Source: Halobacillus sp. Marseille-P3879
Lineage (GTDB): Bacteria; Bacillota; Bacilli; Bacillales; Halobacillaceae
Direction: 5' to 3'
Length of the DNA: 64,000 bases
Assembly: GCF_900240285.1 (NCBI RefSeq)
Contig: NZ_OESS01000002.1
Coordinates: 1-64,000, forward strand
The notes under the pieces are model-generated. The model did not search any database, was not told where the DNA came from, and saw nothing but the letters and a program-made list of their open reading frames with translations. Both the position numbers and the translations under genes were made by a program. Positions 1 to 14,218 of this stretch are shown here, piece after piece (the first letter of the stretch is position 1; each line of letters starts with the position of its first letter).

Positions 1-120
1 GATGAGATTTCCCCTTACGCCAAGTAAGTAAGATTCCTCAGAGACGATGAGGTCAATAGGTCCGAGGTGGAAGCGTGGTGACACGTGCAGCTGACGGATA
101 CTAATCAATCGATGACTTAA
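1..120 (+). rRNA. 23S ribosomal RNA, 3' end (partial)
   Basis: The window opens inside the last part of a 23S rRNA gene. The conserved 3' terminal segment is recognisable, with the typical CTGACGGATACTAATC followed by a GACTTAAC end near position 120. The 5' part lies outside the window. It is the first element of an rRNA-tRNA transcription unit that continues through 5S and 15 tRNAs. The exact mature 3' end is approximate. Confidence 0.93.
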
Positions 121-273
121 CTACAAGCCTTTGTGAAAGGCGTTTCGTACCAAAGATGGTCCATGCTTATCCAGTTTTGAAGGTTTATAAAAAAACTTTA
201 TAAAACCCCTTGAATTTTTCTTGAAAGGGCAATATAATATATCTTGTCCGCAAAAAAGAAACAATTCAAAAGA

Positions 274-388
274 TCTGGTGACGACAGCGAAGAGGTCACA
301 CCTGTTCCCATGCCGAACACAGCAGTTAAGCTCTTCAGCGCCGATGGTAGTCGGGTTTACCCCCGTGAGAGTAGGACGTTGCCAGGTT
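274..388 (+). rRNA. 5S ribosomal RNA
   Basis: This is a canonical bacterial 5S rRNA of about 115 nt. It shows the conserved AGCGAAGAGGTCACACC, the CCGAACACAGCAGTTAAGC loop and the CGCCGATGGTAGTCGGG arm. The ends TCTGGTGAC and GTTGCCAGG pair to close the molecule. It lies about 150 nt after the 23S end and is followed 9 nt later by tRNA-Asn, as in rRNA-linked tRNA clusters of Bacillus. Confidence 0.96.
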
Positions 389-397
389 ATACATTAT

Positions 398-472
398 TCC
401 ACAGTAGCTCAGTGGTAGAGCAATCGGCTGTTAACCGATCGGTCGTAGGTTCGAATCCTACCTGTGGAGCCA
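398..472 (+). tRNA. tRNA-Asn (GTT)
   Basis: A full cloverleaf with acceptor TCCACAG/CTGTGGA, anticodon GTT and an encoded CCA end. It is the first of 15 tightly spaced tRNAs whose order matches the B. subtilis rrnD-linked cluster. Confidence 0.97.
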
Positions 473-479
473 TTCTTCT

Positions 480-572
480 GGAGAGCTGTCCGAGCTGGCC
501 GAAGGAGCACGATTGGAATTCGTGTAAACCGTTCACGCGGTTTCGAGGGTTCGAATCCCTCGCTCTCCGCCA
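480..572 (+). tRNA. tRNA-Ser (GGA)
   Basis: A 93-nt class II tRNA with acceptor GGAGAGC/GCTCTCC, anticodon GGA, a long variable arm and encoded CCA. Confidence 0.97.
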
Positions 573-587
573 TTAGAATCAATAACC

Positions 588-662
588 GGCCCGTTGGTCA
601 AGTGGTTAAGACACCGCCCTTTCACGGCGGTATCACGGGTTCGAATCCCGTACGGGTCACCA
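588..662 (+). tRNA. tRNA-Glu (TTC)
   Basis: Cloverleaf with acceptor GGCCCGT/ACGGGTC (one G-U pair), anticodon TTC and encoded CCA. Confidence 0.97.
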
Positions 663-667
663 CTTCC

Positions 668-743
668 GGAGGATTAGCTCAGCTGGGAGAGCACTTGCCT
701 TACAAGCAAGGGGTCGCAGGTTCGAGCCCTGCATCCTCCACCA
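668..743 (+). tRNA. tRNA-Val (TAC)
   Basis: Cloverleaf with acceptor GGAGGAT/ATCCTCC, anticodon TAC and encoded CCA. Confidence 0.97.
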
Positions 744-791
744 TTTCGACTTCTCGCAAGAGTAACCGTCGAAAGATAACTTAATCATTGT

Positions 792-872
<81 letters not shown>

Positions 873-901
873 ATTCAACATATAGTACGACTTTATTTAA
901 T

Positions 902-978
902 GGTCCGGTAGTTCAGTTGGTTAGAATGCCTGCCTGTCACGCAGGAGGTCGCGGGTTCGAGTCCCGTCCGGACCGCCA
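902..978 (+). tRNA. tRNA-Asp (GTC)
   Basis: Cloverleaf with acceptor GGTCCGG/CCGGACC, anticodon GTC and encoded CCA. Confidence 0.97.
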
Positions 979-1018
979 CTGATTACATTGATACATATGC
1001 TAGATCAACAAATTGTTT

Positions 1019-1094
<76 letters not shown>

Positions 1095-1107
1095 TCTTTT
1101 TTGACTA

Positions 1108-1183
<76 letters not shown>

Positions 1184-1201
1184 TGAAGGTTTATATTACT
1201 T

Positions 1202-1287
1202 GGAGGGATAGCGAAGTTGGCCAAACGCGGCGGACTGTAAATCCGCTCCCATCGGGTTCGTAGGTTCGAGTCCTACTCCCTCCACCA
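1202..1287 (+). tRNA. tRNA-Tyr (GTA)
   Basis: An 86-nt class II tRNA with acceptor GGAGGGA/TCCCTCC, anticodon GTA, a long variable arm and encoded CCA. Confidence 0.97.
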
Positions 1288-1308
1288 TTTTAATTTTATA
1301 ATTCAAAT

Positions 1309-1379
1309 AGGGGTATAGTTTAATGGTAAAACTACGGTCTCCAAAACCGTCAATGTGGGTTCGATTCCTACTACCCCTG
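1309..1379 (+). tRNA. tRNA-Trp (CCA)
   Basis: Cloverleaf with acceptor AGGGGTA/TACCCCT, anticodon CCA and discriminator G. The 3' CCA is not encoded (CTT follows), so it must be added after transcription. Confidence 0.95.
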
Positions 1380-1390
1380 CTTTGATTTGT

Positions 1391-1467
1391 GGCGGTTGTG
1401 GCGAAGTGGTTAACGCACCGGATTGTGGTTCCGGCATTCGTGGGTTCGATCCCCATCAACCGCCCCA
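1391..1467 (+). tRNA. tRNA-His (GTG)
   Basis: Anticodon GTG. The extra 5' G faces a C discriminator, the hallmark of tRNA-His. CCA is encoded. Confidence 0.96.
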
Positions 1468-1485
1468 TTTTTATCTAGTCGATAA

Positions 1486-1560
1486 TGGGCTATAGCCAAG
1501 CGGTAAGGCAACGGTTTTTGGTACCGTCATGCGCTGGTTCGAATCCAGCTAGCCCAGCCA
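1486..1560 (+). tRNA. tRNA-Gln (TTG)
   Basis: Cloverleaf beginning TGGGCTA, paired with TAGCCCA. Anticodon TTG, encoded CCA. Confidence 0.96.
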
Positions 1561-1568
1561 TTTACACT

Positions 1569-1643
1569 GCGGGAGTAGTTCAGTGGTAGAACACCACCTT
1601 GCCAAGGTGGGGGTCGCGGGTTCGAATCCCGTCTCCCGCTCCA
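1569..1643 (+). tRNA. tRNA-Gly (GCC)
   Basis: Cloverleaf with acceptor GCGGGAG/CTCCCGC, anticodon GCC and encoded CCA. It is distinct from the tRNA-Gly (TCC) at 5129. Confidence 0.97.
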
Positions 1644-1703
1644 TTATTTTAATCATAATTAATTAAACTTATGAATATAATTGATTACAATGCTTATTTC
1701 AAT

Positions 1704-1777
1704 GGCGGCATAGCCAAGCGGTAAGGCAGAGGACTGCAACTCCTTTATCACCGGTTCGATTCCGGTTGCCGCCTCCA
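1704..1777 (+). tRNA. tRNA-Cys (GCA)
   Basis: Cloverleaf with acceptor GGCGGCA/TGCCGCC, anticodon GCA and encoded CCA. Confidence 0.97.
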
Positions 1778-1783
1778 TGAAAT

Positions 1784-1865
1784 GCCGGTGTGGCGGAATT
1801 GGCAGACGCGCACGACTCAAAATCGTGTTCCTTCGGGAGTGTCGGTTCGACCCCGACCACCGGTA
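1784..1865 (+). tRNA. tRNA-Leu (CAA)
   Basis: A class II tRNA with acceptor GCCGGTG/CACCGGT (terminal G-U), anticodon CAA and a long variable arm. The 3' end reads CTA instead of CCA, so CCA must be completed enzymatically. It is the last tRNA before the cluster terminator. The B. subtilis cluster has one further Leu gene here. Confidence 0.94.
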
Positions 1866-1892
1866 CTACGAAAATAAATAAAACCTATTAAG

Positions 1893-1928
1893 TCAGTGCT
1901 TAGAGTAATTCAGTGCACTGATTTTTTT
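1893..1928 (+). terminator. Terminator of the rRNA-tRNA unit
   Basis: A TCAGTGC/GCACTGA stem (1893-1899 and 1915-1921) is followed by a run of seven T. It lies just after the last tRNA and ends the rRNA-tRNA unit. Confidence 0.75.
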
Positions 1929-1986
1929 GTGTGTAAAATTAATTAACTCAATGCCTAATCGTGTAGACAAAAACTGCTGTTATTGA

Positions 1987-2325
1987 GGCTCTACTATATT
2001 TGTCGGGGTCTCAGCAAATTAAGCATAAAAAATGCACACAAGCTCCTTGTCTACTACACTTGAATTGTCCAGAAACAAGTAAGTAAGGAGTTGTGTACAG
2101 GTACATTTTAACATGTCATTGTCCGGATTAAAGACTTGATTGTGACTCAGGTGGAAGAACCCGGTGGTGTCTTCCGGATTTATGTATAGGGTCGAAAGCA
2201 AAGGCAGATCTGTCCGGTTTGTGGAGAAAAAACAATAAGAGCGCATGATTACAGCGTTCAAAAATTTCAACATCTTTAATTATTTCTTTAATATAAATAA
2301 CGCCGACATGTTGGGAACGATTGAA
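1987..2325 (+). pseudogene. Degenerate ISL3-family transposase, N-terminal remnant
   Basis: From about 2113 the plus strand can be read, with one frameshift and several stops, as an ISL3-type transposase N-terminus. A start MSLSGLK is followed after the frameshift by LIVTQVEEPGG, then a zinc-ribbon piece with CPVCGEKT and HDYSVQKFQHL, and then a decayed basic stretch containing KRRHVG. In this family CPxCG is followed by HxYR and a second Cys pair. Here everything after about 2325 is missing. The GGCTCT-containing sequence at 1987 may be the left terminal repeat. The minus-strand open frame at 2019-2273 is only the antisense of this remnant. Family assignment is from motif memory. Confidence 0.6.
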
Positions 2326-2374
2326 ACACTACCTGAAGTATGTGGTATAGAGCTTCAACCTAGAACCTATTTAG

Positions 2375-2572
2375 CTAGTTGCTCTTCCTCTTTTCGTCAT
2401 TTTCAATCAGCTTCTTTTGGTTATTAATAATCTCTCGCTGTTGTTTTATAATCTTAAGAGCAAACCATATTATAGAAATAACCACTAAAACCAATAGAAT
2501 CACTGAGACGAAAGGTAGAAAAGTTGTTACAAAGCTGGAAACAACCTCCGTATCATTTTCCACTTCCTTCAT
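2375..2572 (-). CDS. Small single-span membrane protein (65 aa), unknown function
   Basis: A short ORF preceded by an excellent ribosome binding site (GAGGAGGT, 6 nt before ATG), which argues that it is real. The protein has a short polar N-terminus, one hydrophobic segment at about residues 15-43 (FLPFVSVILLVLVVISIIWF) and a charged Lys/Glu/Asn-rich C-terminal helix. This suggests one transmembrane span with a cytoplasmic coiled tail. It stands alone between a transposase remnant and a non-coding stretch. No family was recognised. Confidence 0.6.
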   Translation of the reverse strand: MKEVENDTEVVSSFVTTFLPFVSVILLVLVVISIIWFALKIIKQQREIINNQKKLIENDEKRKSN

Positions 2573-3009
2573 TCAATACCTCCTCTAATTTAAGTGACTA
2601 TAACTCATTTTACCATGTAACATGTTGCTCTAGATGCCCCACATCCATCTACTTAACCTAAGAGATAATCGAATGGTCTTGTGAGAGGCCAACTGTCATT
2701 ACCCATTGAACAGCTGCAATCATTTTGCCACTTAAGTAACTCCCATATCTCTGGCAATATAATCAGTAATTGTGGTGTTTGTTAACTTTCTCAGGGTAGA
2801 CAGCACTTGTTCCTCCGTTAGAAGTTTAGTTTGATGTCAGATTGTTTTATTGTGGAGGTTTTAAAATTTATAAAGGTAGTGAACGCCAACGGCTGATTTG
2901 GGATTTACTATTTTGTTGTTACTTATTGGGACAATTTTTAATAGTAAATGCATATTTAGGGTAGGTTAATAAGGATAAGCTTAAAAGCCCGTATTGGAGG
3001 GACGGTAGT
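2573..3009. other. Intergenic stretch with a possible decayed minus-strand frame
   Basis: No complete gene is seen. On the minus strand, 2733-2829 reads without stops as a protein-like piece (KLLTEEQVLSTLRKL ... DYIARDMGVT) that would suit a helix-turn-helix N-terminus. It has no convincing start and ends at a stop. Downstream pieces in other frames also look protein-like, so it may be debris of a lost gene. The last 15 bases hold the ribosome binding site of the next gene. Confidence 0.3.
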
Positions 3010-4026
3010 ATGGATGTGGATGGAAAAATTATTAAGTTAACTTCTGGTGAAATTGCTCATTTATGGAATTCCTACATGAGCGCAAGCAGTACGATTTGTC
3101 ATTTGGAACACGAATTGGATAAGGCTGAGGACGAAGAAATTAAACCTTTGCTTCAACATGCATTGACCAAGACAAAATCACACATAAGCAAAATTACGGA
3201 AATTTTTAATAAAGAAAATTACCCTATTCCCCACGGGTTTACCCTTGAAGAAGATGTAGATATCAGTGCTCCGAGATTGTTCTCTGACACTTATGCTTTA
3301 AACTCACTCAACCATTTAGGGAAAATCGGATTGAATGCATATTGTATGGCTTTAACTATTGCAGTAAGACAAGATGTTTATACTTTTTTTAGTAACAGTT
3401 TAAGTGATTATGATGATTTAGTTAAGAAAACGAATGATTTACTGTTATCAAAGGGATTATATATTCGTTCACCATACCTTCCAATACCTGAGGAGATTGA
3501 CTTTGTTAAAGAGAAATCTTTTCTATCAGGTTTTTTTGGTGAAAAAAGACCATTAACAGGAATTGAAATTACACACTTATATACTAATTTCCAAAGAAAC
3601 GCACTAGGGGCTGCCACTATGACCGGCTATAGCCAAGTATCTAAAAATAGTGAAGTGACTCAGTTCCTATTGAGGGGAAAGGAAATAGCTAAAAAACATT
3701 GTGAAATTTTTGCCTCGTATTTGAAAGAAAGTGATCTTCCGAGCCCTTTGACATGGGGATCGGAAGTGACAGACTCTACTACTTATACGTTTTCTGATAA
3801 GAAAATGATGTTTTACACAACTAGTCTAATCGCTCTTAGTATTGGTTATTATGGCAACAGCATGACTATGAGCCCGAGAAGAGATATTGGAGTCATGTAC
3901 AGCAGACTAGTTGCAGAAATCATGAAATACGCTGATGATGGTGCAAAAATAATGATTAAATATGGGTGGATGGAAGAACCTCCAAGATCTTTAGACCGGG
4001 ATGAATTGGCAAAGAGCAAACAATAA
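3010..4026 (+). CDS. DUF3231 family protein (two ferritin-like helical repeats)
   Basis: A 338-residue protein of the DUF3231 family, common in Bacillaceae and of unknown function. It is built of two related all-helical halves of about 165 residues, each starting with a T..EI.HLW/HLY motif: LTSGEIAHLWNSYM near residue 10 and LTGIEITHLYTNFQ near residue 182. Each half contains conserved His and Glu residues. The C-terminus carries the family signature WMEEPP. ATG follows GGAGGG by 8 nt. It is monocistronic between non-coding stretches. A diverged paralogue lies at 46574-47569 on the other strand. A ferritin-like or metal role is only an inference from the fold. Confidence 0.85.
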   Translation: MDVDGKIIKLTSGEIAHLWNSYMSASSTICHLEHELDKAEDEEIKPLLQHALTKTKSHISKITEIFNKENYPIPHGFTLEEDVDISAPRLFSDTYALNSLNHLGKIGLNAYCMALTIAVRQDVYTFFSNSLSDYDDLVKKTNDLLLSKGLYIRSPYLPIPEEIDFVKEKSFLSGFFGEKRPLTGIEITHLYTNFQRNALGAATMTGYSQVSKNSEVTQFLLRGKEIAKKHCEIFASYLKESDLPSPLTWGSEVTDSTTYTFSDKKMMFYTTSLIALSIGYYGNSMTMSPRRDIGVMYSRLVAEIMKYADDGAKIMIKYGWMEEPPRSLDRDELAKSKQ

Positions 4027-4385
4027 AAACTTACCCAGAGAGTTACATTCCGATTCATTTTAACCTCAATATGTATGTTGTTCAAAAGTGGTATTCCGCG
4101 CTCTATCAATTCCATGAAATACGGGAAAGCATGCAAAGAAAAGGTTCTCGAACCAGGGAAACATAGGGAGTAGAAATGGAGGAGAACCTGGGTTTTGAGG
4201 GATATAAAAGAAGAAAGTCGTCTAGTCACTTACCCTGCTGCGGTCTGAATAACCTGCAACAGGGTTTTAAATTATTCGCTTAGTATAGTGCTGCTCGGAG
4301 TTGGTACATAATGATAATTGTGAACGCAGGTAAACTTATGTTAAGCTTTTTGGTAGCAGATTCATTATTGAGTAAGGTGAGGCAG
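4027..4385. other. Intergenic stretch with a possible terminator
   Basis: No gene is supported. A hairpin at 4232-4265 (ACCCTGCTGC against GCAACAGGGT, one mismatch) is followed by TTTT and could terminate transcription from the DUF3231 gene. The open frame on the minus strand at 3849-4229 is a shadow. A palindrome GGTTCTCGAACC sits near 4144-4155. Confidence 0.35.
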
Positions 4386-4757
4386 ATGAAGACCACAGAA
4401 AACAATCAAATCAAATATGCTCAGCAGCATTTAGCTAATGAACGTACATATTTAGCATGGGTTCGGACAGTGATCGCAATTGTAGGTATCGGCTTCCTGA
4501 ACACCAGTCTTCACTTTACAATGGGTGCCCAGCGGAACCTGACCGTAGATTTAATAAGCATTGCGCTTGGTGTGTTTGCCTGTATCCTTGGATTTGTAAT
4601 TATCGTACTCGCCACTTTTGCTTATTTTCATCGAAAGAGAAAGATCATGAACGAAGAGACTTTTTTACCTTCTAAAGCGCAAGTTACCTTGGTGTCGTCC
4701 CTAATGATTATTATTATCTTATTTATTGTATTGTACTTTCTTTACCTTGAAAGCTGA
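4386..4757 (+). CDS. DUF202 (YidH-type) small membrane protein
   Basis: A 123-residue inner-membrane protein of the DUF202 family. The diagnostic N-terminal LANERTYLAWVRT motif is followed by three predicted transmembrane spans, at about residues 30-50, 62-85 and 98-120. A basic loop HRKRK lies between the second and third spans. An upstream in-frame ATG exists at 4311, but the start at 4386 has the better ribosome binding site (AAGGTGAGGCAG) and gives the normal family N-terminus. Function is unknown. It appears to be transcribed alone. Confidence 0.8.
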   Translation: MKTTENNQIKYAQQHLANERTYLAWVRTVIAIVGIGFLNTSLHFTMGAQRNLTVDLISIALGVFACILGFVIIVLATFAYFHRKRKIMNEETFLPSKAQVTLVSSLMIIIILFIVLYFLYLES

Positions 4758-4792
4758 TTTATCGATTTTTGTTGAAATTGGTCAACTATCGG

Positions 4793-4821
4793 TTGTCAGC
4801 TGGCCGGCTGATTGTTATAAT
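4793..4821 (+). promoter_or_regulatory. Sigma-A-type promoter of the tRNA-Gly locus
   Basis: TTGTCA (4793-4798), a spacer of exactly 17 nt, and TATAAT (4816-4821). It lies just upstream of the first tRNA-Gly half copy. No comparably good promoter was noticed between the copies, so the array and the intact tRNA are probably one transcript. Confidence 0.7.
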
Positions 4822-4841
4822 TAAAATTGTCTTCCATAAAC

Positions 4842-5159
4842 GCGGGTGTAGTTTAATGGTAAAACCTCAGCCACGAGCGAGGCTTCACTTGAATAACCTG
4901 CGAGTTGCCTCGACGGATAAGCTTCCTTGATTAGCTTTTAGAGGAAGAGGCATGAAAGAACGTGGCTAATGAAAGATTATATATGCGGGTGTAGTTTAAT
5001 GGTAAAACCTCAGCCACGAGCGAGGCTTCACCTGAATTGCCTACGAGTTGCCTCGACGGATAAGCTTCTTTGATTAAGCTTTTAGAGGAAGAGGCATGAA
5101 AGAACGTGGCTAATGAAAGATTATATATGCGGGTGTAGTTTAATGGTAAAACCTCAGCC
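4842..5159 (+). repeat. Tandem array of tRNA-Gly 5' halves with structured spacers
   Basis: The first 31 nt of tRNA-Gly (acceptor strand through the 5' side of the anticodon loop, ending CTCAGCC) occur three times, identically, at 4842, 4985 and 5129. The first two copies lack the rest of the tRNA. Each instead runs into a spacer of about 112 nt, giving a repeat period of 143-144 bp. The two units differ at about six positions plus one single-base indel. Each spacer can fold: AGCCACG, partly tRNA sequence, pairs with CGTGGCT near the unit end. Inside lie GAGGC/GCCTC and CTTCCT/AGGAAG helices. Only the third copy is a full tRNA. Confidence 0.9.
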
Positions 5160-5202
5160 TTCCAAGCTGATGACGAGGGTTCGATTCCCTTCATCCGCTC
5201 CA
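5129..5202 (+). tRNA. tRNA-Gly (TCC)
   Basis: A complete 74-nt cloverleaf with acceptor GCGGGTG/CATCCGC, anticodon stem TCAGC/GCTGA, anticodon TCC and encoded CCA. It is the only intact member of the array that begins at 4842, and shares its first 31 nt with the two upstream partial copies. It is followed by a terminator at 5235. Confidence 0.95.
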
Positions 5203-5234
5203 TAATTTGCTATTATATCTTAATTACGTGATCC

Positions 5235-5277
5235 AACGCAGTGTTTCGTTTAAAAAAAACGAAGCATTGCGTTTTTT
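5235..5277 (+). terminator. Terminator of the tRNA-Gly locus
   Basis: An imperfect inverted repeat, AACGCAGTGTTTCG against CGAAGCATTGCGTT, is followed by six T. It closes the tRNA-Gly transcript. Confidence 0.75.
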
Positions 5278-5326
5278 ATTGAAGCAAACCGGAAACACCA
5301 ATAAGAGGTAGAAAGGAGCATAAAGA

Positions 5327-7033
5327 ATGAACAAACTAAAAAACGTTCTAAAACAAATTGATGGAAAAAGTTATAAAGGTTACAAGGAGATTCAGGGCAG
5401 CTATTCATTTCCTTCTTATCGACTGAAAATTGATTATGTACAGGGAGATCCATTTGCCGCACCGTCTAAAATACGGGTGCAAATTCCGGCTAGTGTGAAG
5501 AAAATAAAAGCTGAGTGGAAAGAAACAAAAAGCAGACAGATTTATACGGAAGATGTTTTAGCTCGGAAAGTAGCCTCCGTTCTTAATCGAAGCAAGCCAA
5601 ATGTACGGGGGTCTGGAAAAAGCGGTATGGTCTCAATCGATCAACCTAAACAAGAGATCATAGAACGAACAGCTGTTGGTGTGGAGAATGATCTAATTAC
5701 GGTTTGTCTTACTGTAGGGCTGCCCGCAAATGGCAGACGTATTAATGGAAAAGAAGCAGATAAACTCTTTTTTACAGTGATTCCTAACTTAATTAAAGAC
5801 TCTCTCCTTTCAATTACGGATGGCGAAATCCAGGAGTTTGTAGAATTAGCTGATCAGCATGATGCCATCCTTTCCAAAATGAGAGAGAAAAACCTTATTT
5901 CTTTTGTAGCTGATGACGCGATATTACCTAGAGAAAGCGGTGTAAGTGATCGTCCGATGAAAGGTGCGATTCCTTTTAAGAGTCCTGAAGCCAATCGAGT
6001 TTCTATAGATGTTCCTCATCGGGATGAACCTCTAACTGGCATGGGGATTTCAAAAGGGATTGTATTAATTGTCGGAGGGGGCTATCATGGTAAAAGTACC
6101 CTCTTGAATGCGATGGAGCGCGGGGTTTATCCTCATATTAGCGGGGATGGCCGTGAATTTGTGCTGACCGACCCCAGTGCGGTAAAAGTTCGAGCCGAAG
6201 ATGGCAGGCAGGTAACCAATGTCGATATCTCTCCTTTTATAAAAAATTTACCACGAGGAGCAGATACGACGAAGTTCTCTACAGAAAATGCAAGTGGAAG
6301 TACTTCTCAGGCGGCGAACGTTATCGAAGCCATTGAGGCTGGAGCACACACTTTGCTTATTGATGAGGATACAAGTGCTACGAACTTTATGATTCGTGAT
6401 GAACGTATGCAGGAGCTGGTTGTCCGTGAAAAAGAGCCGATCACTCCTTTTATTGATAAAATTAAAAGTCTGCGTGATGAAATGGATGTTTCCACCATAC
6501 TTGTTATGGGCGGATCAGGCGATTATTTCTCAGAGGCAGATGATGTGATTATGATGGACCAGTACGTTCCTCATAACGTGACAAAGAAAGCGAAGGAAAT
6601 TGCTGAGAAGTATCCTTCCCACCGTCAAACGGCTGAAGAATCGTTTGGTCAATTGCCTTCTCGTCATTTTCTTCCTCACTCCATTCAGCCTCGCAAAGGA
6701 AAAAAGGAAAAGGTTCAAGCTAAAGGAAGAACGGTGATTTTAATGGGAGCAGTAGAGGTTGATCTTGATGGGGTTGAACAACTTGTAGATGCTTCTCAAA
6801 CGAGAATGATCGCTGACTTGCTCATGCATTTATATAAGGAAGATTTATTAAGTAAAAAACAGTCATTATCCAGTTTGCTTGATACGATTGAAGCTCAGTT
6901 GAATGAATTGGGACTTGCGTCATTCGCCCCATTTAAAGATCAGCATCCCGGAGAGCTGGCAAGACCGCGCCGGTTTGAAATTGCAGCAGCGTTAAATCGT
7001 ATTCGGACTGCGAGAGTGAAGGATTTAAGATAA
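5327..7033 (+). CDS. Predicted ATPase of the ABC class (COG3044)
   Basis: A 568-residue protein of the COG3044 / ABC_ATPase family, widespread but uncharacterised. The N-terminal 230 residues form the family-specific domain. A P-loop GGGYHGKST lies at about residues 250-258, followed by a Walker B-like HTLLIDEDTSATNFMIRD near residues 338-355 and a glycine-rich VMGGSGDYF strand. It lacks the ABC signature LSGGQ and has no membrane segment, so it is probably a soluble P-loop NTPase and not a transporter. The start ATG has an AAAGGAG site. It ends 20 nt before queG and may be cotranscribed with it. The biological role is unknown. Confidence 0.85.
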   Translation: MNKLKNVLKQIDGKSYKGYKEIQGSYSFPSYRLKIDYVQGDPFAAPSKIRVQIPASVKKIKAEWKETKSRQIYTEDVLARKVASVLNRSKPNVRGSGKSGMVSIDQPKQEIIERTAVGVENDLITVCLTVGLPANGRRINGKEADKLFFTVIPNLIKDSLLSITDGEIQEFVELADQHDAILSKMREKNLISFVADDAILPRESGVSDRPMKGAIPFKSPEANRVSIDVPHRDEPLTGMGISKGIVLIVGGGYHGKSTLLNAMERGVYPHISGDGREFVLTDPSAVKVRAEDGRQVTNVDISPFIKNLPRGADTTKFSTENASGSTSQAANVIEAIEAGAHTLLIDEDTSATNFMIRDERMQELVVREKEPITPFIDKIKSLRDEMDVSTILVMGGSGDYFSEADDVIMMDQYVPHNVTKKAKEIAEKYPSHRQTAEESFGQLPSRHFLPHSIQPRKGKKEKVQAKGRTVILMGAVEVDLDGVEQLVDASQTRMIADLLMHLYKEDLLSKKQSLSSLLDTIEAQLNELGLASFAPFKDQHPGELARPRRFEIAAALNRIRTARVKDLR

Positions 7034-7053
7034 AAAGAAAGGAGGTAGTCAAG

Positions 7054-8187
7054 GTGGATTTTCATCAATTTAAAGAAGAAGTAATCGCTTATAGTAAAGA
7101 AATAGGGATCGATAAAATTGGATTTGCCTCTGCTGATGTCTTCGGTGAATTAAAAGCGAGACTTCAACGACAACAAGCCCTTGGCTATCAATCCGGATTT
7201 GAAAAAGGTACGGTGGAGGAACGGTCAGAGCCAGAACGTCTGCTTCCTGAGGCTCAAACGATTATCTCAATCGCGCTTGCTTACCCTTCTAAAATGAAAA
7301 ACGCTCCAAAAAGTAAGAAGGGGGAGCGCAGGGGTGTATTTGCCCGTGCCTCCTGGGGGCGGGACTATCATGATGTCCTAAGAGAGAAGTTGAATCTGCT
7401 CGGAGCTTATATAAAAGAACACGTACCTGAAGCTGAATTTAAATCAATGGTGGATACTGGTGAGTTGTCAGACCGTGCTGTTGCTGAACGTGCCGGAATT
7501 GGTTTCAGTGGTAAAAACTGTGCCATTATCACACCTGAGTATGGCTCTTACGTGTACTTAGGCGAAATGGTTACCAATCTTCCATTTGCTCCTGACGATC
7601 CCGTGGAAGATAGTTGCGGGGACTGTAATATTTGCGTAGATACCTGCCCGACTGATGCATTGGTGCAAGGTGGTCAGCTTAATGCTCAGAGGTGTATTGC
7701 CTTCCTTACTCAAACAAAAGATTTCTTGGCAGAGGAGTACAGAACGAAGCTTGGCAATCGGTTATATGGTTGTGATACGTGTCAAACCGTTTGTCCTAAA
7801 AACAAAAAGAAAGATTTCCACAATCATGAGGAATTTGAACCTGATCCAGAAATAGCCAAGCCTAAGTTAATACCCCTGTTATCCATCAGTAACCGGGAAT
7901 TTAAAGAGCAGTTCGGTTCGATTTCCGGCTCATGGCGTGGTAAAAAACCGATCCAGCGTAATGCGATACTGGCTCTCGGCCATTATCGGGAAGAAGCTGC
8001 GGTAGATGAATTGATCCGTTTAATGAAAAATGACCCACGTCCCGTAATTCGGGGAACAGCAGCCTATTCGTTAGGTAAAATAGGCACAGTCGACTGCTTC
8101 CGTGCTATTGAGGAAGCGCAGGCTGTGGAAGAAGATGAACAAGTGGTTTTTGAAATGAAAAAAGGCTTACAATTTCAAGAAAGATAA
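7054..8187 (+). CDS. queG: Epoxyqueuosine reductase QueG
   Basis: A 377-residue enzyme that reduces epoxyqueuosine to queuosine in the tRNA wobble base, using cobalamin and two 4Fe-4S clusters. The ferredoxin-like clusters are visible as CGDCNICVDTCP (Cys 188, 191, 194, 198) and CDTCQTVCP (Cys 240, 243, 247). The conserved MVDTGELSDRAVAERAGIG sits at about residues 132-150. A HEAT-like helical tail follows residue 300. GTG start after AAAGGAGG. It is the counterpart of B. subtilis YhbA, and the following yhbB-like and trmL genes preserve that neighbourhood. Confidence 0.95.
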   Translation: MDFHQFKEEVIAYSKEIGIDKIGFASADVFGELKARLQRQQALGYQSGFEKGTVEERSEPERLLPEAQTIISIALAYPSKMKNAPKSKKGERRGVFARASWGRDYHDVLREKLNLLGAYIKEHVPEAEFKSMVDTGELSDRAVAERAGIGFSGKNCAIITPEYGSYVYLGEMVTNLPFAPDDPVEDSCGDCNICVDTCPTDALVQGGQLNAQRCIAFLTQTKDFLAEEYRTKLGNRLYGCDTCQTVCPKNKKKDFHNHEEFEPDPEIAKPKLIPLLSISNREFKEQFGSISGSWRGKKPIQRNAILALGHYREEAAVDELIRLMKNDPRPVIRGTAAYSLGKIGTVDCFRAIEEAQAVEEDEQVVFEMKKGLQFQER

Positions 8188-8257
8188 ACGAATCTCCCTT
8201 TTCAGAATATAATAGGTCCTGTATAATAGAAAAAACTGTTAGTAAGAGGGGTTTTAT

Positions 8258-8800
8258 ATGAGCAACCAATCCATGATCTATTACGATGTGATGGATACAC
8301 CCGTCGGAGATATAACTATATTAGCTACCGATGAAGGGATATTACGAATTGACTATGGTCGCTTTGAAGACCTGCACTCTTTTTACCAAACGTGGATAAA
8401 GAAACACCTGCTCAAAAGTTCATTTATGCACAGTCCTGAACATCCCTACGTTCACCAGGCGATAATGGAACTCAGTGAATACTTTACAAGAGAACGAGAA
8501 ACGTTTACTCTTCCGCTTCTTTGCTATGGGACCCCTTTTCAAAAAAGTGTCTGGCGTGCGCTGCGAGAGCATATTCCCCTGGGGATGACAAAGACGTACA
8601 AAGATATAGCGCTCGCTCTTCAGGCTTCCCAATCTGTGCGGGCAGTCGGCGGGGCGATTAATAAGAACCCTTTTGCTATTGTTGTCCCTTGTCACAGAGT
8701 CATTGGAAGCAATGGAAAGCTTGTCGGTTATGCAGGCGGTTTAGATCGGAAACGCCAATTATTGGAGTTAGAATCCGACCAAACTAGATTAAAGGCCTAA
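8258..8800 (+). CDS. ogt: Methylated-DNA--protein-cysteine methyltransferase
   Basis: A 180-residue suicide enzyme that transfers the alkyl group from O6-alkylguanine to its own cysteine. The active site PCHRVIG is at residues 144-150, with Cys145. The helix-turn-helix DNA-binding part (TKTYKDIALALQ, then SVRAVGGAINKNP) precedes it. Length fits the Ogt type with a short N-terminal domain. ATG after GAGGGG. It sits between queG and the amidase gene, with a terminator right behind it. Confidence 0.93.
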   Translation: MSNQSMIYYDVMDTPVGDITILATDEGILRIDYGRFEDLHSFYQTWIKKHLLKSSFMHSPEHPYVHQAIMELSEYFTRERETFTLPLLCYGTPFQKSVWRALREHIPLGMTKTYKDIALALQASQSVRAVGGAINKNPFAIVVPCHRVIGSNGKLVGYAGGLDRKRQLLELESDQTRLKA

Positions 8801-8810
8801 GTTTTAGTTA

Positions 8811-8835
8811 ACTCCCTAATAAAGGGAGTTTTTTT
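8811..8835 (+). terminator. Terminator after ogt
   Basis: ACTCCCT-AATAA-AGGGAGT stem-loop followed by seven T. Confidence 0.85.
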
Positions 8836-8887
8836 GTATGGTTTTCTTTTCTTGTTCATATAGTGATAGGACAGGAGGGGATAGGCA

Positions 8888-9745
8888 GTGAATGCGATCA
8901 GAAGGTATTGGGAAGATATTATGGAACGTTTATTTACTCAAGAAGAGGAACTGTGGCTGTACCGTAAAGTCCAGGGATTTACGGAGAGGGGCCAGCAGGT
9001 AAAGAGAGCAACATTCGCCATCCGTCCTTACCACCGGGTGACGTATGACAGAGACCAGTATGTAGATTATCTTATTTCTGTTCATTTATATATTAAGGAT
9101 GGATTAAAATCGTACTTAGAAGAAGGCGTTTATTCCTGCTGTTGCTATGTTCAGGGGGATGAAATCATTGAACAAACCACCCTCACAGAAAAACTTCTCT
9201 CTCCGAGTAAGGCTAACCTAACTCCTCAATTTATCGAAAAAGAGGAAGAGTTAAGATCACCCTTCAGCTATGACAGAAGGGAAGCCGTTCGTTATGCAGA
9301 GCAGTGGTGGGATAGCTATAATCCTGCCTACAAGCATTTTGATGTAGATTGTACCAATTATATTTCCCAATGTCTGCGAGCAGGAGGAGCTCCGATGTTA
9401 GGCCAGCATAACCGTAGCAAAGGATGGTGGTACAGCGGAAAAAGCTGGAGCTATAGCTGGGCTGTCGCCCACTCTTTAAGATGGTATTTAAGCGGGGCGA
9501 GGAAGGGATTAATAGCAAGCGAGGCTTCAGAAGCAAACCAGTTATCCCCGGGTGATATTATTTGTTATGACTTTCAAGGGGATGGACGATTTGATCATAC
9601 GACGATTGTTGTCAATAAAGATAGTCAAGGGGAACCTTTGGTAAATGCCCATACTACTAACAGTCGTCAGCGGTTTTGGGCATATACGGATTCGACAGCC
9701 TACACACCCAATATTCAATATAAATTTTTTCACATTGGAGGCTGA
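8888..9745 (+). CDS. Amidase-domain protein, YhbB-like
   Basis: A 285-residue protein whose second half is the putative amidase domain (Amidase_6) found in B. subtilis YhbB. The likely nucleophile is Cys155 in FDVDCTNYISQCLRAGG. The partner His lies in GRFDHTTIVV near residue 239, an arrangement like NlpC/CHAP cysteine peptidases. No signal peptide is visible, so it is either cytoplasmic or exported by another route. GTG start preceded by AGGAGGGG about 8 nt upstream. The position between queG/ogt and trmL matches the yhbA-yhbB-cspR order. The cell-wall substrate is inferred. Confidence 0.82.
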   Translation: MNAIRRYWEDIMERLFTQEEELWLYRKVQGFTERGQQVKRATFAIRPYHRVTYDRDQYVDYLISVHLYIKDGLKSYLEEGVYSCCCYVQGDEIIEQTTLTEKLLSPSKANLTPQFIEKEEELRSPFSYDRREAVRYAEQWWDSYNPAYKHFDVDCTNYISQCLRAGGAPMLGQHNRSKGWWYSGKSWSYSWAVAHSLRWYLSGARKGLIASEASEANQLSPGDIICYDFQGDGRFDHTTIVVNKDSQGEPLVNAHTTNSRQRFWAYTDSTAYTPNIQYKFFHIGG

Positions 9746-9794
9746 TAGATATGGTATAATAATTTAGTTGATGACGTAGAGCGAGGTGAGAAGA

Positions 9795-10271
9795 ATGTCC
9801 AATCATATTGTATTATTTCAGCCCGAAATACCTGCCAATACAGGAAATATTGCTCGTACATGCTTAGCAACGAATTCACAGCTTCACCTTATTCGACCTT
9901 TAGGATTCTCTACAGATGATAAAATGCTGCGTCGCGCCGGTTTAGATTATTGGCATGACGTTACGATTCATTATTACGATTCCATCCAGGAACTATATGA
10001 CCGTTATCCAGCAGGAGAATTCTTTTATATAGAGAACTTTGGTACGAAGTCGTATGCTGATTTTGACTTTAGTGATTCAGAGCAATCCTGGTTTTTCGTT
10101 TTCGGGAGAGAGACGGATGGAATACCTAAGCAGCTGCTGCAAGGACTTGAAGATCGCTGCCTACGTATACCTATGACGGATAAAGTCAGATCATTAAACT
10201 TAGCTAATACGGCTTCGATCATTTTGTTCGATGCTTTAAAGCAGCAAGGTTTTCCTCAGTTAATTAAATAA
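9795..10271 (+). CDS. trmL: tRNA (cytidine(34)-2'-O)-methyltransferase TrmL
   Basis: A 158-residue SPOUT-class methyltransferase that 2'-O-methylates the wobble nucleotide of tRNA-Leu isoacceptors. The knotted SAM-binding motifs are clear: the N-terminal PEIPANTGNIARTCLA, then FGRETDGIP near residue 100, and IPMTDKVRSLNLANTASII near the C-terminus. A GTG nine bases upstream (9786) is in frame, but the ATG at 9795 is preceded by AGGTGAG at good spacing. It is the counterpart of B. subtilis CspR. Confidence 0.94.
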   Translation: MSNHIVLFQPEIPANTGNIARTCLATNSQLHLIRPLGFSTDDKMLRRAGLDYWHDVTIHYYDSIQELYDRYPAGEFFYIENFGTKSYADFDFSDSEQSWFFVFGRETDGIPKQLLQGLEDRCLRIPMTDKVRSLNLANTASIILFDALKQQGFPQLIK

Positions 10272-10330
10272 CAGCTTTAAAGGACTGACTATATTCTCTT
10301 AGAATAAGCGGGCTCAGTCTATTGATCGAT

Positions 10331-10368
10331 AAAAAAATCGCAGCTTCTACACGAAGTGCGATTTTTTT
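10331..10368 (+). terminator. Terminator after trmL (possibly bidirectional)
   Basis: An A-tract, an ATCGCA..CTTC/GAAGTGCGAT hairpin and a seven-T tract. The symmetry would also let it serve the minus-strand peptide gene that ends at 10444. Confidence 0.8.
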
Positions 10369-10443
10369 GCATTATAAAGATAATTCTTTGTGGGAACGAG
10401 GTTACTCCCCGGGTTCCGGCGTCTGCATTTTAGTTTTTATATG

Positions 10444-10539
10444 TTATTTTTTTGGACGTCCTGGCTTTACGTCGTAGCCAGCGGAAAAGATTGATACTAA
10501 GTATGTGACGCATACGAGAATAATCAAAGTTAACTTCAT
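10444..10539 (-). CDS. 31-residue hydrophobic peptide, unknown function
   Basis: A very short gene on the minus strand with an ideal ribosome binding site (AAAGGAGGTCGC, 8-9 nt before ATG). The peptide begins MKLTLIILVCVTYLVSIF, a single membrane-spanning stretch, followed by a short tail ending PGRPKK. The size and the hydrophobic N-terminus with basic tail are compatible with a small membrane or sporulation peptide. They also resemble small type I toxins, but no antitoxin RNA was demonstrated. It is convergent with trmL. Confidence 0.55.
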   Translation of the reverse strand: MKLTLIILVCVTYLVSIFSAGYDVKPGRPKK

Positions 10540-10725
10540 GTAAAGCGACCTCCTTTAATAGCTGAGCAGACAAGCAGTGATGTTTGTTATTATAACCCAT
10601 TTTCGTGAGAATGTGAATTGATTGTAAGTGAAAATTAAAAAGATCACTTTTCGCCCATACATCCTGTTGGAGCGGCACATATGTTGAAATGTAGGTGAAT
10701 AACCCGCTTGCAATGGAGGGATGAT

Positions 10726-10980
10726 ATGCTGCCTTATTCGCACGAGTTCGAAGATGATATGCGTTTTATAGATCCTCATGAATATGAAGATGATCGGTTT
10801 ATTGGAGGGTTTATAGGAGGTCCTTTTGTTGGTGGATTTTTAGGAGGACTACTTGGAAGTGCTATATTTCCACCTTACTATGGTGGAGGAGGCGGAGGAT
10901 ACTACCCACCGCCCTATTACGGCCCGCCAGGCCCCCCACCGCCATACTATTACCCATATGGCGGAGGATATTACTGGTAG
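10726..10980 (+). CDS. Gly/Pro/Tyr-rich small protein (84 aa)
   Basis: The protein starts with an acidic segment (residues 1-25, rich in Asp, Glu, His). A glycine-zipper-like hydrophobic stretch follows (GGFIGGPFVGGFLGGLLG). It ends in a low-complexity tail of Gly, Pro and Tyr, with runs such as GGGGGGYYPPPYYGPPG. A glycine zipper followed by a Tyr/Pro tail is seen in coat- or membrane-associated proteins of spore formers, so a spore-surface role is conceivable but unproven. The start is the ATG at 10726 (GGAGGG 6 nt upstream); an in-frame TTG at 10708 is less likely. A terminator follows directly. Confidence 0.65.
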   Translation: MLPYSHEFEDDMRFIDPHEYEDDRFIGGFIGGPFVGGFLGGLLGSAIFPPYYGGGGGGYYPPPYYGPPGPPPPYYYPYGGGYYW

Positions 10981-10989
10981 AAAATAGTA

Positions 10990-11015
10990 GACCGCTGTCT
11001 TTAGGCGGTCTTTTT
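10990..11015 (+). terminator. Terminator after the Gly/Pro/Tyr-rich gene
   Basis: GACCGC-TGTCTTTAG-GCGGTC hairpin followed by TTTTT. Confidence 0.85.
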
Positions 11016-11099
11016 CTATTTAATGATTATGGTATAATAGGAAAATAAATCCGACATAAGATTACATAATTATTTCTTTTTTCTGAAAGGATGTCACGA

Positions 11100-11771
11100 A
11101 TGGGGAAAATGATAGGTTACTTCCTGATGGGGATCGCTCTGCTAGTAACAACAGCATGTGGTTCAGAGCAATCAGATGAAAGCGATCCAATAGAAGTAAC
11201 TCTTGAACAAATCAAAAGTAAAGAGACCGAATCTCAGGAAATGCCCGAAGAAGAAATTAAAGAAGAAATTCCAGAAAACAATCTCGAAGATTTAGAGTCG
11301 GTTGAGGAAGACCTTGAGGATGAAGTCCAGGAGGAGACAGAGGTTGAAGAAGAGAATTTAGATGGTTCAACCAGGACAGAGGAATATACATATAATGAAA
11401 CCGATGAAGGGACATCTTCCCCTGATGCTCAGGCTTCTCCGTACAGCCCTGATACAAGTTCAAGCAGACCAGATTCAAGCAGTACAGACAACTCCTCATC
11501 TTCTGCCACATCACCGTCATCTTCCGAAGAACCAACTGAACTACCTGAGTCAGAAGAGACAGAAGGTACAGAAGAGCCTGAAGAAGATGAGGCAGAAGAA
11601 GAACAAGAACAAGAGTCTGAAGAACACAATGAAACAGTCGAAGAAACAGAAGAAGAAGTGGAAGAAGACGCAGAGGAAGATAGTCGCGAGGATGAAAGTG
11701 AAGTAAAAGAAGAGGAACAAGAACAAGAAGAACAAGAGATGACCGAGTCAGAAGAAGAGAACCCAGAATAA
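11100..11771 (+). CDS. Highly acidic lipoprotein, unknown function
   Basis: A 223-residue protein with a lipoprotein signal peptide (lipobox VTTAC-G, Cys near residue 20). The rest is almost wholly low complexity. An acidic part (EEEIKEEIPENN) comes first, then a Ser/Pro/Thr-rich segment, then about 90 residues made mainly of Glu. No globular domain is visible. It would be anchored to the outer face of the membrane with a strongly negative tail. Such composition suits a moderately halophilic cell and could bind cations, but that is inference. An alternative ATG lies 9 nt upstream (11091). Confidence 0.75.
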   Translation: MGKMIGYFLMGIALLVTTACGSEQSDESDPIEVTLEQIKSKETESQEMPEEEIKEEIPENNLEDLESVEEDLEDEVQEETEVEEENLDGSTRTEEYTYNETDEGTSSPDAQASPYSPDTSSSRPDSSSTDNSSSSATSPSSSEEPTELPESEETEGTEEPEEDEAEEEQEQESEEHNETVEETEEEVEEDAEEDSREDESEVKEEEQEQEEQEMTESEEENPE

Positions 11772-11841
11772 AAGGAAACGAAATTAAAACCATAGTCTCA
11801 ACCTCTAAAGTCGAACCCTTAACTACAAAAAAGAGAAATAA

Positions 11842-11896
11842 ATCCGAACTATCTCGTCCCCTTGAGGAAAAATTCGAATGATAGTTCGGATTTTTT
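11842..11896 (+). terminator. Terminator after the acidic lipoprotein gene
   Basis: ATCCGAACTAT paired with ATAGTTCGGAT across a 28-nt loop, then TTTTTT. A similar CCGAAC/GTTCGG hairpin recurs at 28433. Confidence 0.7.
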
Positions 11897-12181
11897 GTGA
11901 ACAGAAATACTTTTGTCCTAGTTCTAAAGGCTCGTTGTGTATGTCCTGGTGAACTAGATGAAAAGTGTCTTTCACTATCTTAAACAACTACCCGGAAGCA
12001 TGCCCTCTCAAGGCCTGCGGAAGAACGATTGAACCGTAATCTCTGGATATGGACATCTTGAGGCAGCCCATCCGTGGATTAGAAAGAGTTTTTCTCTCCT
12101 CTGGCAGCAAGAAAAAAGCTTGCGGAAAACCAGGGGTTCTCCACAAGCTGAATCCGCATGCTCAAACGGATATCTTCGCCT
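11897..12181. other. Intergenic stretch without a recognisable gene
   Basis: About 285 bp between the lipoprotein terminator and the lipA stop codon. Short open frames exist on both strands, but none has a ribosome binding site or familiar motif. It also contains the 3' region of the lipA transcript. No clear terminator for lipA was identified. Confidence 0.4.
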
Positions 12182-13126
12182 TTAAAATGTCGTTTTGTCT
12201 AATGTTTTCCCTTGAGATTCATAGCCTTGCATATACTTAATTCGACGTTGAGCTGAAGTTTCATTGACTTGCTCATCCGCATGATAAGAAGAGCGTACCA
12301 TTGGGCCTGCTTCGCAATGCTTAAATCCTTTTTCCATAGCAATTTGTTTTAATTCCTCGAATTCGTCAGGATGGTAATAACGTTCCACATTTAAATGTTT
12401 CTTCGTTGGCTGTAAATATTGGCCAATTGTCATGATATCTACATTATGAGCCAGAAGGTCATCCATTGCCTGAATAATTTCTTCTTTCGTTTCTCCCAAA
12501 CCTACCATCAAGCTGGATTTTGTCGGTGTATCCGGGCGGATTTCCTTCACACGGCGCAGCAGCTCCAGGGAACGATCATACATCGCACGGGCACGGACTT
12601 TCTTGGTAAGACGACGTACAGTCTCAATGTTGTGATTGAAAATGTCTGGTTCGCCCTCCATTAAAGTGTTCAGGCTTTCGTAATCCCCTTTCATATCAGA
12701 AGGGAGGATTTCTACGGTGCACCCGGGTACACGGCGGCGGATAGCTTTAACGGTTTCTCCAAAAACTGCTGCTCCGCCATCCTTTAAGTCATCACGGGCA
12801 ACAGCGGTCACAACCACATGTTTAAGACCCATAATTTCTACAGATTCTGCTACACGTTCCGGCTCTCCCCAATCTAATTCGTTAGGAAGGCCTGTTTTTA
12901 CTGCACAGAAGCGGCATCCGCGTGTGCAAGTGTCTCCAAGGATCATAAAGGTTGCTGTTTTACGTTCGCTCCAGCATTCATGAATATTAGGACAGCGCGC
13001 TTCTTCACAGACGGTATTGAGTTTCTTCTCACGCATTAATTTCTTTAAGCCTGTGTACGATTTGTTCGTGTTAATCTTAATCTTTAACCAATCGGGTTTA
13101 CGTATGTATTCATCTTTCTTAGCCAA
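12182..13126 (-). CDS. lipA: Lipoyl synthase LipA
   Basis: A 314-residue radical SAM enzyme that inserts two sulfurs into protein-bound octanoyl chains to form lipoyl groups. Both iron-sulfur sites are present: the auxiliary cluster C..C..C at Cys40, Cys45 and Cys51 ([13 protein letters not shown]) and the radical SAM motif CTRGCRFC at 67-74. The gene lies 18 nt downstream of lipM on the same strand, so the two form an operon. Its products are needed by the lipoyl domain of OdhB encoded at 22956. Good ribosome binding site (AAGGAG) before ATG. Confidence 0.97.
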
Positions 13127-13144
13127 TTAGATCGTCTCCTTTTA

Positions 13145-13960: not shown

Positions 13961-14218
13961 TCATTAGACCTTCTTTCCATAAGTAATCCTTTATTCGATT
14001 AAATAGTCAAGACAATTCTAACAAGGGGACTATACCCTGTCAAAGCAAGGAGAAGCTTACAGTAATGGAAAACGCTTTTTTTGCGGGTGGTTGCGTGATC
14101 GCGCATACGGAAACTGCGGGGATCATCAAGAAAAGAGCTTGTACCTTATACGAATGTTTCTGTTCTCCCGAGCATAGGATGTATTAAATTTGCTAGTTAC
14201 GACGAGGGAGGTCGTTGA

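Follow-up and report, generated by a model that had tools for sequence, protein, structure and literature searches.

A tRNA-Gly(TCC) gene in Halobacillus sp. Marseille-P3879 is preceded by two further copies of its own 5′ half, and the locus raises the question of how such an array arose and what the sequence between the copies represents. A sequence-only reading had offered three answers: that the array is a tRNA-linked element, either mobile or duplicated; that it acts as a decoy for RNase P or glycyl-tRNA synthetase; or that it gives rise to small structured RNAs. We analyzed the window (the whole stretch of 64,000 nt of contig NZ_OESS01000002.1 that contains the array) together with related genomes. 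Sequence comparison and ARAGORN agree with the earlier reading that the 31-nt half of tRNA-Gly(TCC) is present in three identical copies (4842–4872, 4985–5015, and 5129–5159) and that the third alone belongs to a whole tRNA (5129–5202). The unit periods are 143 and 144 bp, as had been proposed, and 6 of the 81 aligned positions of a core described below distinguish the two spacers, in line with the earlier estimate of about six differences; the 63-base stretch that separates core 1 from core 2 recurs without a difference directly after core 2. The features of the locus are as follows:

4793–4821 (+), promoter-like site ahead of the array (consensus scan, 11 of 12 matches)
4842–4872 (+), head 1, nt 1–31 of tRNA-Gly(TCC) (identical to 5129–5159)
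4873–4952 (+), core 1 of the repeat element (match to covariance model R1)
4953–4984 (+), linker 1 (sequence from core 1 to head 2)
4985–5015 (+), head 2, 5′ part of tRNA-Gly(TCC) (identical to 5129–5159)
5016–5096 (+), core 2 of the repeat element (covariance model R1, 87.3 bits)
5097–5128 (+), linker 2 (sequence from core 2 to the tRNA; identical to linker 1)
5129–5202 (+), intact tRNA-Gly(TCC), CCA encoded (ARAGORN and Rfam RF00005)
5235–5273 (+), terminator-like hairpin and T run (consensus scan)

The array had been placed between a single promoter and a terminator. Both sites were located as consensus matches, but neither was the only one of its kind: the scan gave three promoter-like sites, compared with 1.9 in shuffled sequences, and three terminator-like sites, compared with 0.4. 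The window unit contains no sense-strand ORF of 70 aa or more. An antisense open frame of 90 aa crosses the array (4931–5203, −); its repetitive make-up reflects the repeat, and it is unlikely to represent a gene. On the 3′ side of the tRNA-Gly, 5327–8187 (+) carries an ABC-type ATPase gene and a queG-like gene (both named by eye), and one or the other is also found near the tRNA-Gly unit in many relatives. The window array is one of three tRNA-Gly loci with the unit in this genome, in which the covariance model finds four cores in total; because the unit also recurs in many other genomes, the array is not an assembly artifact.

A structured core spread over the order

The spacer contains a conserved core of approximately 80 bp. 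A covariance model built from 54 cores was run against 397 genomes of the order: 179 of them, including the Halobacillus genome, matched at E ≤ 1e-4, the matches cover 81 of 135 genera, and 218 genomes gave no match under strict filters. Sixteen of 398 genomes drawn from the class matched, and all 16 were the Halobacillus genome itself or members of the same order. Because strict filters were applied in both scans and no more than 11 candidates were scored in each genome, the copy numbers that they return are lower bounds. Homologs of the spacer, whose absence elsewhere, together with a lack of RNA from the units, the earlier reading would have taken as a sign of neutral duplication, are therefore present well outside the window, and the Gly array is one member of a wider phenomenon. 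A search of 150 relatives with the Gly unit also found the spacer part in many genera, and its tally of 150 out of 150 reflects the tRNA half alone and is uninformative about the core. One set of loci was collected with this query, and Gly is over-represented in it as a result. Loci in the named genomes (at least 118 stretches) were found with a pattern inside the core that contains no tRNA letters, and the genus lists from that scan are incomplete.

When the window unit was compared with Rfam release 15, the tRNA alone reached the gathering score, and weak matches over the unit at E values of up to 10 were all far below gathering. Cores in five loci (L038, L040, L041, L044, and L045) had no Rfam match at E values of up to 1, and cores in eight others (L250, L251, L256, L258, L261, L264, L155, and L065) had none at gathering. 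A search of one open-access library found no description of a tRNA-lodged core, and neither did the available parts of PMC8632094, PMC2864571, and PMC2267715. A 1.6-kb Evansella array had no match among phage records. A plasmid search with a tRNA-rich 1.8-kb stretch returned 1317 records, which are probably mostly tRNA or rRNA matches and were set aside.

The sequence-only reading had proposed to check the copy number of the unit and its presence at other tRNA loci. The spacer core occurs in many genera and lies ahead of ten kinds of tRNA: Gly, Met (both initiator and elongator), Lys, Phe, Asn, Thr, Arg, Val, Asp, and Ala. Among 141 full units located no more than 75 nt from a tRNA, the partial tRNA copy at the start of the unit, which we call the head, matches the next tRNA in 130, and in 95 it does so without a mismatch. 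The 89 of these 141 units that have three or more further tRNAs in their locus allowed a comparison among tRNAs (the other 52 were left out of this test); the next tRNA was the best match of the head in 74 of the 89, and one unit gave a tie. Head length in the matched set ranges from 14 to 31 nt and depends on the tRNA: mostly 14 nt for initiator Met; 17 nt for Asn, Val, Asp, and Ala; 17 or 24 nt for Phe; 24–25 nt for Thr; 17–18 or 26–27 nt for Lys; 17 or 27–28 nt for Arg; and 31 nt for Gly. The element is thus not specific for Gly, as the same core is found with Phe, Lys, Asn, Met, Thr, Val, Asp, Ala, and Arg heads. These nine non-Gly heads, and the absence of a 3′ half from the heads, leave the suggested decoy for RNase P or glycyl-tRNA synthetase with no evidence in its favor.

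Heads also follow species-specific variants of the tRNA, as in L050, where CTACAGCC is found in tRNA and head alike. In several units the head is lost or mutated (L057, the first copy in L047, and L004). By eye, head mismatches often fall in the acceptor strand, and decayed heads are mostly those of single units or of the upstream-most unit in an array, a distribution that fits homogenization beside the tRNA and redundancy alike. We infer that the heads undergo concerted evolution.

Insertion junctions and an apparent shared target motif

Immediately after the core, the tRNA sequence resumes at the point at which the head stopped. The resumed stretches include GGTAGAGC for Lys (L034 and L162), GTTAACA for Asp (L093), GGATAG for Arg (L171), GTAG for Asn, GGTA for Phe, and GGGA for Val. 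A resumption of at least 2 nt (and up to 8 nt) was found in 51 of 65 non-Gly units, compared with none of 65 Gly units, in which the resumed run was 1 nt in 64 cases and absent in one. Over all 130 units, the mean resumed run was 1.82 nt at the true junction and 0.01–0.69 nt at 13 of 14 shifted positions. The exception was a shift of +8 (mean run 1.45 nt), which arises because Gly linkers begin with TGA, like the tRNA-Gly sequence eight bases further on; eight bases may have been lost at the Gly junctions.

The clearest insertions were observed in two species. In Bacillus kwashiorkori (L134 and L154), the core lies inside the Gly head of another unit (GTAGTT / core / TAATGG), and the element therefore also enters its own earlier insertions. 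In Geobacillus zalihae (L158:4346-4502), the core interrupts a second copy of tRNA-Arg(TCT) that has kept its 3′ half and is located approximately 146 nt after an intact tRNA-Arg(TCT). The 3′ halves of the two copies are equal, and the interrupted copy lacks two anticodon-loop nucleotides that its intact neighbor contains. This locus looks like an early stage of the process. We rejected the idea that the core is a tRNA intron, since the units have no 3′ half and this single copy that does is missing the two anticodon-loop nucleotides.

No target duplication was found at the clean insertions in B. kwashiorkori (L134 and L154) or G. zalihae (L158), and the motif that precedes the junctions, AGNN, fixes two bases only. 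AG is present at positions −4/−3 in 23 of 25 distinct tRNA-type flanks, compared with a frequency of 0.103 at random places in the same tRNAs. It is also present in 22 of 27 distinct flanks without a downstream tRNA, or in 18 of 23 when four flanks that are tRNA heads at a locus edge or remnants are omitted; these dispersed flanks come from a few repeat families and are not independent events. Many of the insertion sites correspond to what we take to be, from tRNA numbering, the D loop just before the conserved GG.

Structure, duplication, and dispersal

Covariance modeling of the spacer, a check named in the sequence-only reading, identified a covarying 6-bp helix in which model positions 34–39 pair with positions 76–81, the right end of the element. 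Among 236 distinct cores, pair 36-79 is TA in 113 and CG in 111, pair 37-78 is CG in 197 and TA in 32, pair 38-77 is TA in 181 and CG in 47, and pair 42-72 is CG in 230, AT in four, and GC in one; G43 stands opposite A71 in 234. By eye, the element consists of two similar motifs, ACG...CTTCNNNGAATANNCTNNGAG, one in each half, and no covariation was found in the left motif. We then compared Gly loci with the same gene next to the tRNA as in the window (ORF 5327–7033, an ABC-type ATPase by eye); of 20 such loci selected, 19 gave a usable proximal unit. At least five of the six helix pairs are retained in all 19 units and all six in 18, through five Watson-Crick combinations and one that includes a wobble pair. 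Mean identity among these units was 0.93 for the head, 0.74 for the core, and 0.48 for the linker (0.33 for shuffled sequences, from 60 of the 171 syntenic pairs), and one sister pair showed the reverse order (linker 0.94, core 0.84). Because the 31-bp direct repeats should ease loss of the core, its retention points to selection on the core or to repeated re-insertion. The compensatory changes indicate that the structure of the core is selected as RNA or as single-stranded DNA, and this constraint suggests a role in one of these forms.

The particular hairpin of the sequence-only reading, in which AGCCACG pairs with CGTGGCT, fared less well. The window contains this helix, but its linker is one of only two of 67 distinct Gly linkers in which the exact pairing is found, and we therefore rejected the 7-bp outer helix as a general feature. 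Outer helices of at least 5 bp occur at a frequency of 0.31 in Gly linkers (0.075 when shuffled) and 0.29 at other tRNAs (0.14 when shuffled). The predicted fold of the unit was no stronger than that of shuffled sequences (z = −1.2; 27 and 24 of 200 shuffles folded as well), a shorter piece gave z = −1.86, and three units from other loci gave values above 0, so fold energy alone lends the hairpin no support. The notion that the units are a source of structured RNAs is strengthened as regards structure by the compensatory changes in the core; their transcription is a prediction.

Two observations bear on how the units multiply. In 99 first or single units, the 10 nt upstream of the head and the 10 nt upstream of the intact tRNA showed an identity of 0.643, compared with 0.408 for shuffled partners, indicating that the leader and the 5′ end of the tRNA are present twice; from the direct repeats, a duplication step appears to have taken place. 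Arrays reach six units at one tRNA-Lys (L264, in genome G303), where the first core lacks a Lys head, the other five share a common Lys head, and the same linker follows all six cores. Linkers are alike within arrays, and this likeness and the size of the arrays fit unequal recombination between units. The differences between the two window units (6 of 81 core positions, compared with 0 of 63 flanking positions) and one sister pair had hinted that the core is hypervariable. We rejected this idea because pooled tandem pairs (29 of 40 used) gave 80 differences in 2358 core positions and 81 in 2101 flanking positions.

Copies are also dispersed. The core has 87 matches in Litchfieldia alkalitelluris, 112 in Evansella clarkii, and at least 150 in E. 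halocellulosilytica, compared with 37 in G303 and 4 in the genome of the window; the many copies at unrelated places that characterize a mobile (MITE-like) repeat are therefore found in three genomes. In Evansella, the core is found in composite repeats and also shares arrays with further short repeats. Among the matches listed for the named loci, 150 full copies comprise 89 within 80 nt of a tRNA, 12 at 81–700 nt, 40 with no tRNA within 700 nt, and 9 near the edge of a locus. A reduced set that leaves out five Evansella species, Litchfieldia, Alteribacter, and one metagenome bin contains 90 copies from 41 named genomes among the matches listed, of which 77 are within 80 nt of a tRNA, 11 at 81–700 nt, one without a tRNA, and one at an edge. 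Over all loci we counted 242 full copies (copies were merged only if their raw sequences were identical, so a few may count twice). Of these, 163 lie within 80 nt of a tRNA, all in the sense orientation and none antisense; 143 have a sense tRNA downstream, and the other 20 are upstream copies whose nearest tRNA is on the 5′ side. For 50 of 69 cores (a tie being counted here), the nearest relative was found at the same tRNA of a different genome, and for the other 19 at another tRNA of the same genome, which indicates that spread within a genome accounts for a minority of copies.

Mobile repeat, leader RNA, and known systems

We consider it probable that the array goes back to a mobile repeat inserted into one of two copies of a tRNA 5′ end that was duplicated locally, with multiplication by recombination between the halves. 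This explanation upholds and widens the earlier proposal of a mobile or duplicated tRNA-linked element, as repeat insertion and local duplication are both visible. Judging from the junctions, the core would first enter a tRNA sequence 3′ of AGNN. The entry points lie in the D loop, close to the D/anticodon junction, or in the anticodon loop, and the clearest of them show no target duplication. The direct repeats suggest a second step, in which the tRNA 5′ end and a short leader would come to be present twice while the intact tRNA remains downstream and the remainder of the broken copy is lost or decays. Recombination between a head and the 5′ half of the intact tRNA could then add or remove units and keep the heads close to the tRNA. 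The core would provide the structure by which a non-autonomous mobile repeat is recognized, a repeat that would have settled mostly in tRNA genes, and the unit would presumably lie within the leader of the pre-tRNA transcript, where a secondary role in tRNA expression is possible.

We infer mobility as the origin of the tRNA-lodged core, and several observations stand against a plain mobile repeat. The location of 88 of 90 copies within 700 nt of a tRNA (41 named genomes, among the matches listed) is more than a generic repeat should show; the intact tRNA directly downstream is explained only by the added duplication step; and the conservation of the core relative to the linker at syntenic Gly loci, despite loss-prone repeats, points to function or repeated re-insertion. 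The search for a Y1 mobilizer, which found no link, the few repeat families behind the dispersed flanks, the tandem pairs in which the core differs no less than its flanks, and the predominance of nearest relatives at the same tRNA in another genome weigh on the same side.

A rival explanation is a functional leader RNA, in which head and core would act in cis on tRNA folding, RNase processing, or transcription, for example by means of a second 5′ acceptor strand or a protein-binding hairpin. The uniform sense orientation of the 163 copies near tRNAs, the helix kept in all 19 syntenic Gly units by several types of pair, the drift of the linker beside a retained core, the heads that track species-specific tRNA variants (L050), and the location of 88 of 90 copies at tRNAs all speak for such an RNA. 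Set against these are the 218 of 397 genomes of the order that lack a match under strict filters, the heads that are lost or mutated, often in what by eye is the acceptor strand, the high-copy dispersed versions, and the variety of tRNAs and insertion points. We therefore regard a leader RNA as a possible explanation, on balance an unlikely one. Equally tentative is the suggestion that the core represents a new class of structured element that colonizes tRNA genes by way of the D and anticodon loops and is thereafter retained as a self-referential leader RNA that tunes tRNA folding or processing. If so, many Bacillales tRNA transcripts would receive a second, competing tRNA 5′ end, from a leader that is in the sense orientation in every copy near a tRNA and that carries a partial copy of the very tRNA it precedes.

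Two further explanations are highly improbable. One is that the array is the scar of an attachment site, or a minimal element, of a site-specific recombinase that uses 5′ parts of tRNAs as att sites. The repetition of the tRNA 5′ part on both sides of the insert, the tRNA restored downstream as after integration, and the tandem arrays would be consistent with this, but the heads of different tRNAs share no fixed sequence beyond the junction AG and range from 31 nt in Gly to 14 nt in initiator Met, the core is also present without any tRNA repeat, and no recombinase was recognized by eye in the ORF list for positions 1–14000 of the window. The other is a recent neutral tandem duplication of the tRNA 5′ half and an unrelated spacer, of no wider meaning. 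The identical heads and linkers in the window agree with it, as do copy numbers that vary among loci and genomes. It is refuted as a complete account by the core, which shows compensatory changes and is found in 81 of 135 genera, both ahead of many tRNAs and at other places; duplication survives as one step of the account that we favor.

Although few genes are annotated as well as those for tRNAs, the RNA catalog that we searched yielded no entry for an element that interrupts and duplicates them and lies ahead of them in many genomes of one order. The element may give essential tRNA transcripts long structured leaders, and it makes tRNA loci prone to gain and loss of units. The sense orientation and the cognate heads make the choice between parasite and leader directly testable.

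The anatomy of the core resembles that of IS200/IS605-type ends. Like the PATE-like elements derived from IS200/IS605, it has, by eye, two similar motifs, its clean insertions appear to lie 3′ of a short motif and lack a target duplication, and an internal stretch pairs with its right end; unlike them, it has no link to a Y1 transposase, and AGNN is looser than their tetra- or pentanucleotide targets. As regards the structured ends expected of IS200/IS605 and REP/RAYT elements, there is one covarying helix, at the right end, and a left motif by eye only. Among 24 genomes searched, the Y1 transposase (PF01797) had no match in the carriers G054, G303, and G057 and was present in non-carriers (e.g., G002, G056, and G058). 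At 30 Y1 loci (of 48 Y1 matches), no match to the core was better than E = 1.3. From these three carriers and 30 loci, we rejected a resident Y1 (HUH) transposase as the mobilizer and make no claim of membership in the IS200/IS605 or REP/RAYT families; a lost or distant mobilizer is possible. Larger, interrupted, ORF-bearing versions of the element were also rejected: there were seven left-end-only matches, and the five that were examined looked composite, truncated, or decayed. One left-end match (L159) has three ORFs of at least 100 aa nearby, including, by eye, an RNase III-like and a short-chain-dehydrogenase-like ORF.

Small non-autonomous structured intergenic repeats are typified by REP, BOX, and bcr1-type repeats. 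The core is like them in being short, structured, non-coding, single or tandem, and in some genomes dispersed at high copy, and unlike them in its location at tRNA genes in most named genomes, its association with the 5′ end of the downstream tRNA, and its span of many genera of one order. Genomic islands at tRNA genes likewise duplicate part of the tRNA and restore an intact one. In contrast to such islands, the core units (approximately 110–170 bp) have no cargo and no recognized integrase, occur at several types of tRNA, and follow AGNN, and an island was rejected for the window because its unit has 143–144 bp and no sense ORF of 70 aa or more. BOX and bcr1 appear as table and reference entries in the available part of PMC2267715, which also gives Bhal-1, a 74-bp repeat family with 36 copies in B. 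halodurans that could be the same element.

The Bacillaceae-1 RNA (RF01690) is tabled as a candidate structured RNA for Bacillaceae in the available part of PMC2864571. It has no match to the window or to the cores in the scanned loci. Its one match (L250:2917-2982, +, 38.3 bits, threshold 35) lies on the opposite strand of a composite repeat that ends like the core, and this RNA may belong to the same mosaic of repeats in Evansella. In L155, from position 5894 (+), a core is interrupted by another repeat that starts ACAGGACGTCC, and similar stretches are found in L250 and L253.
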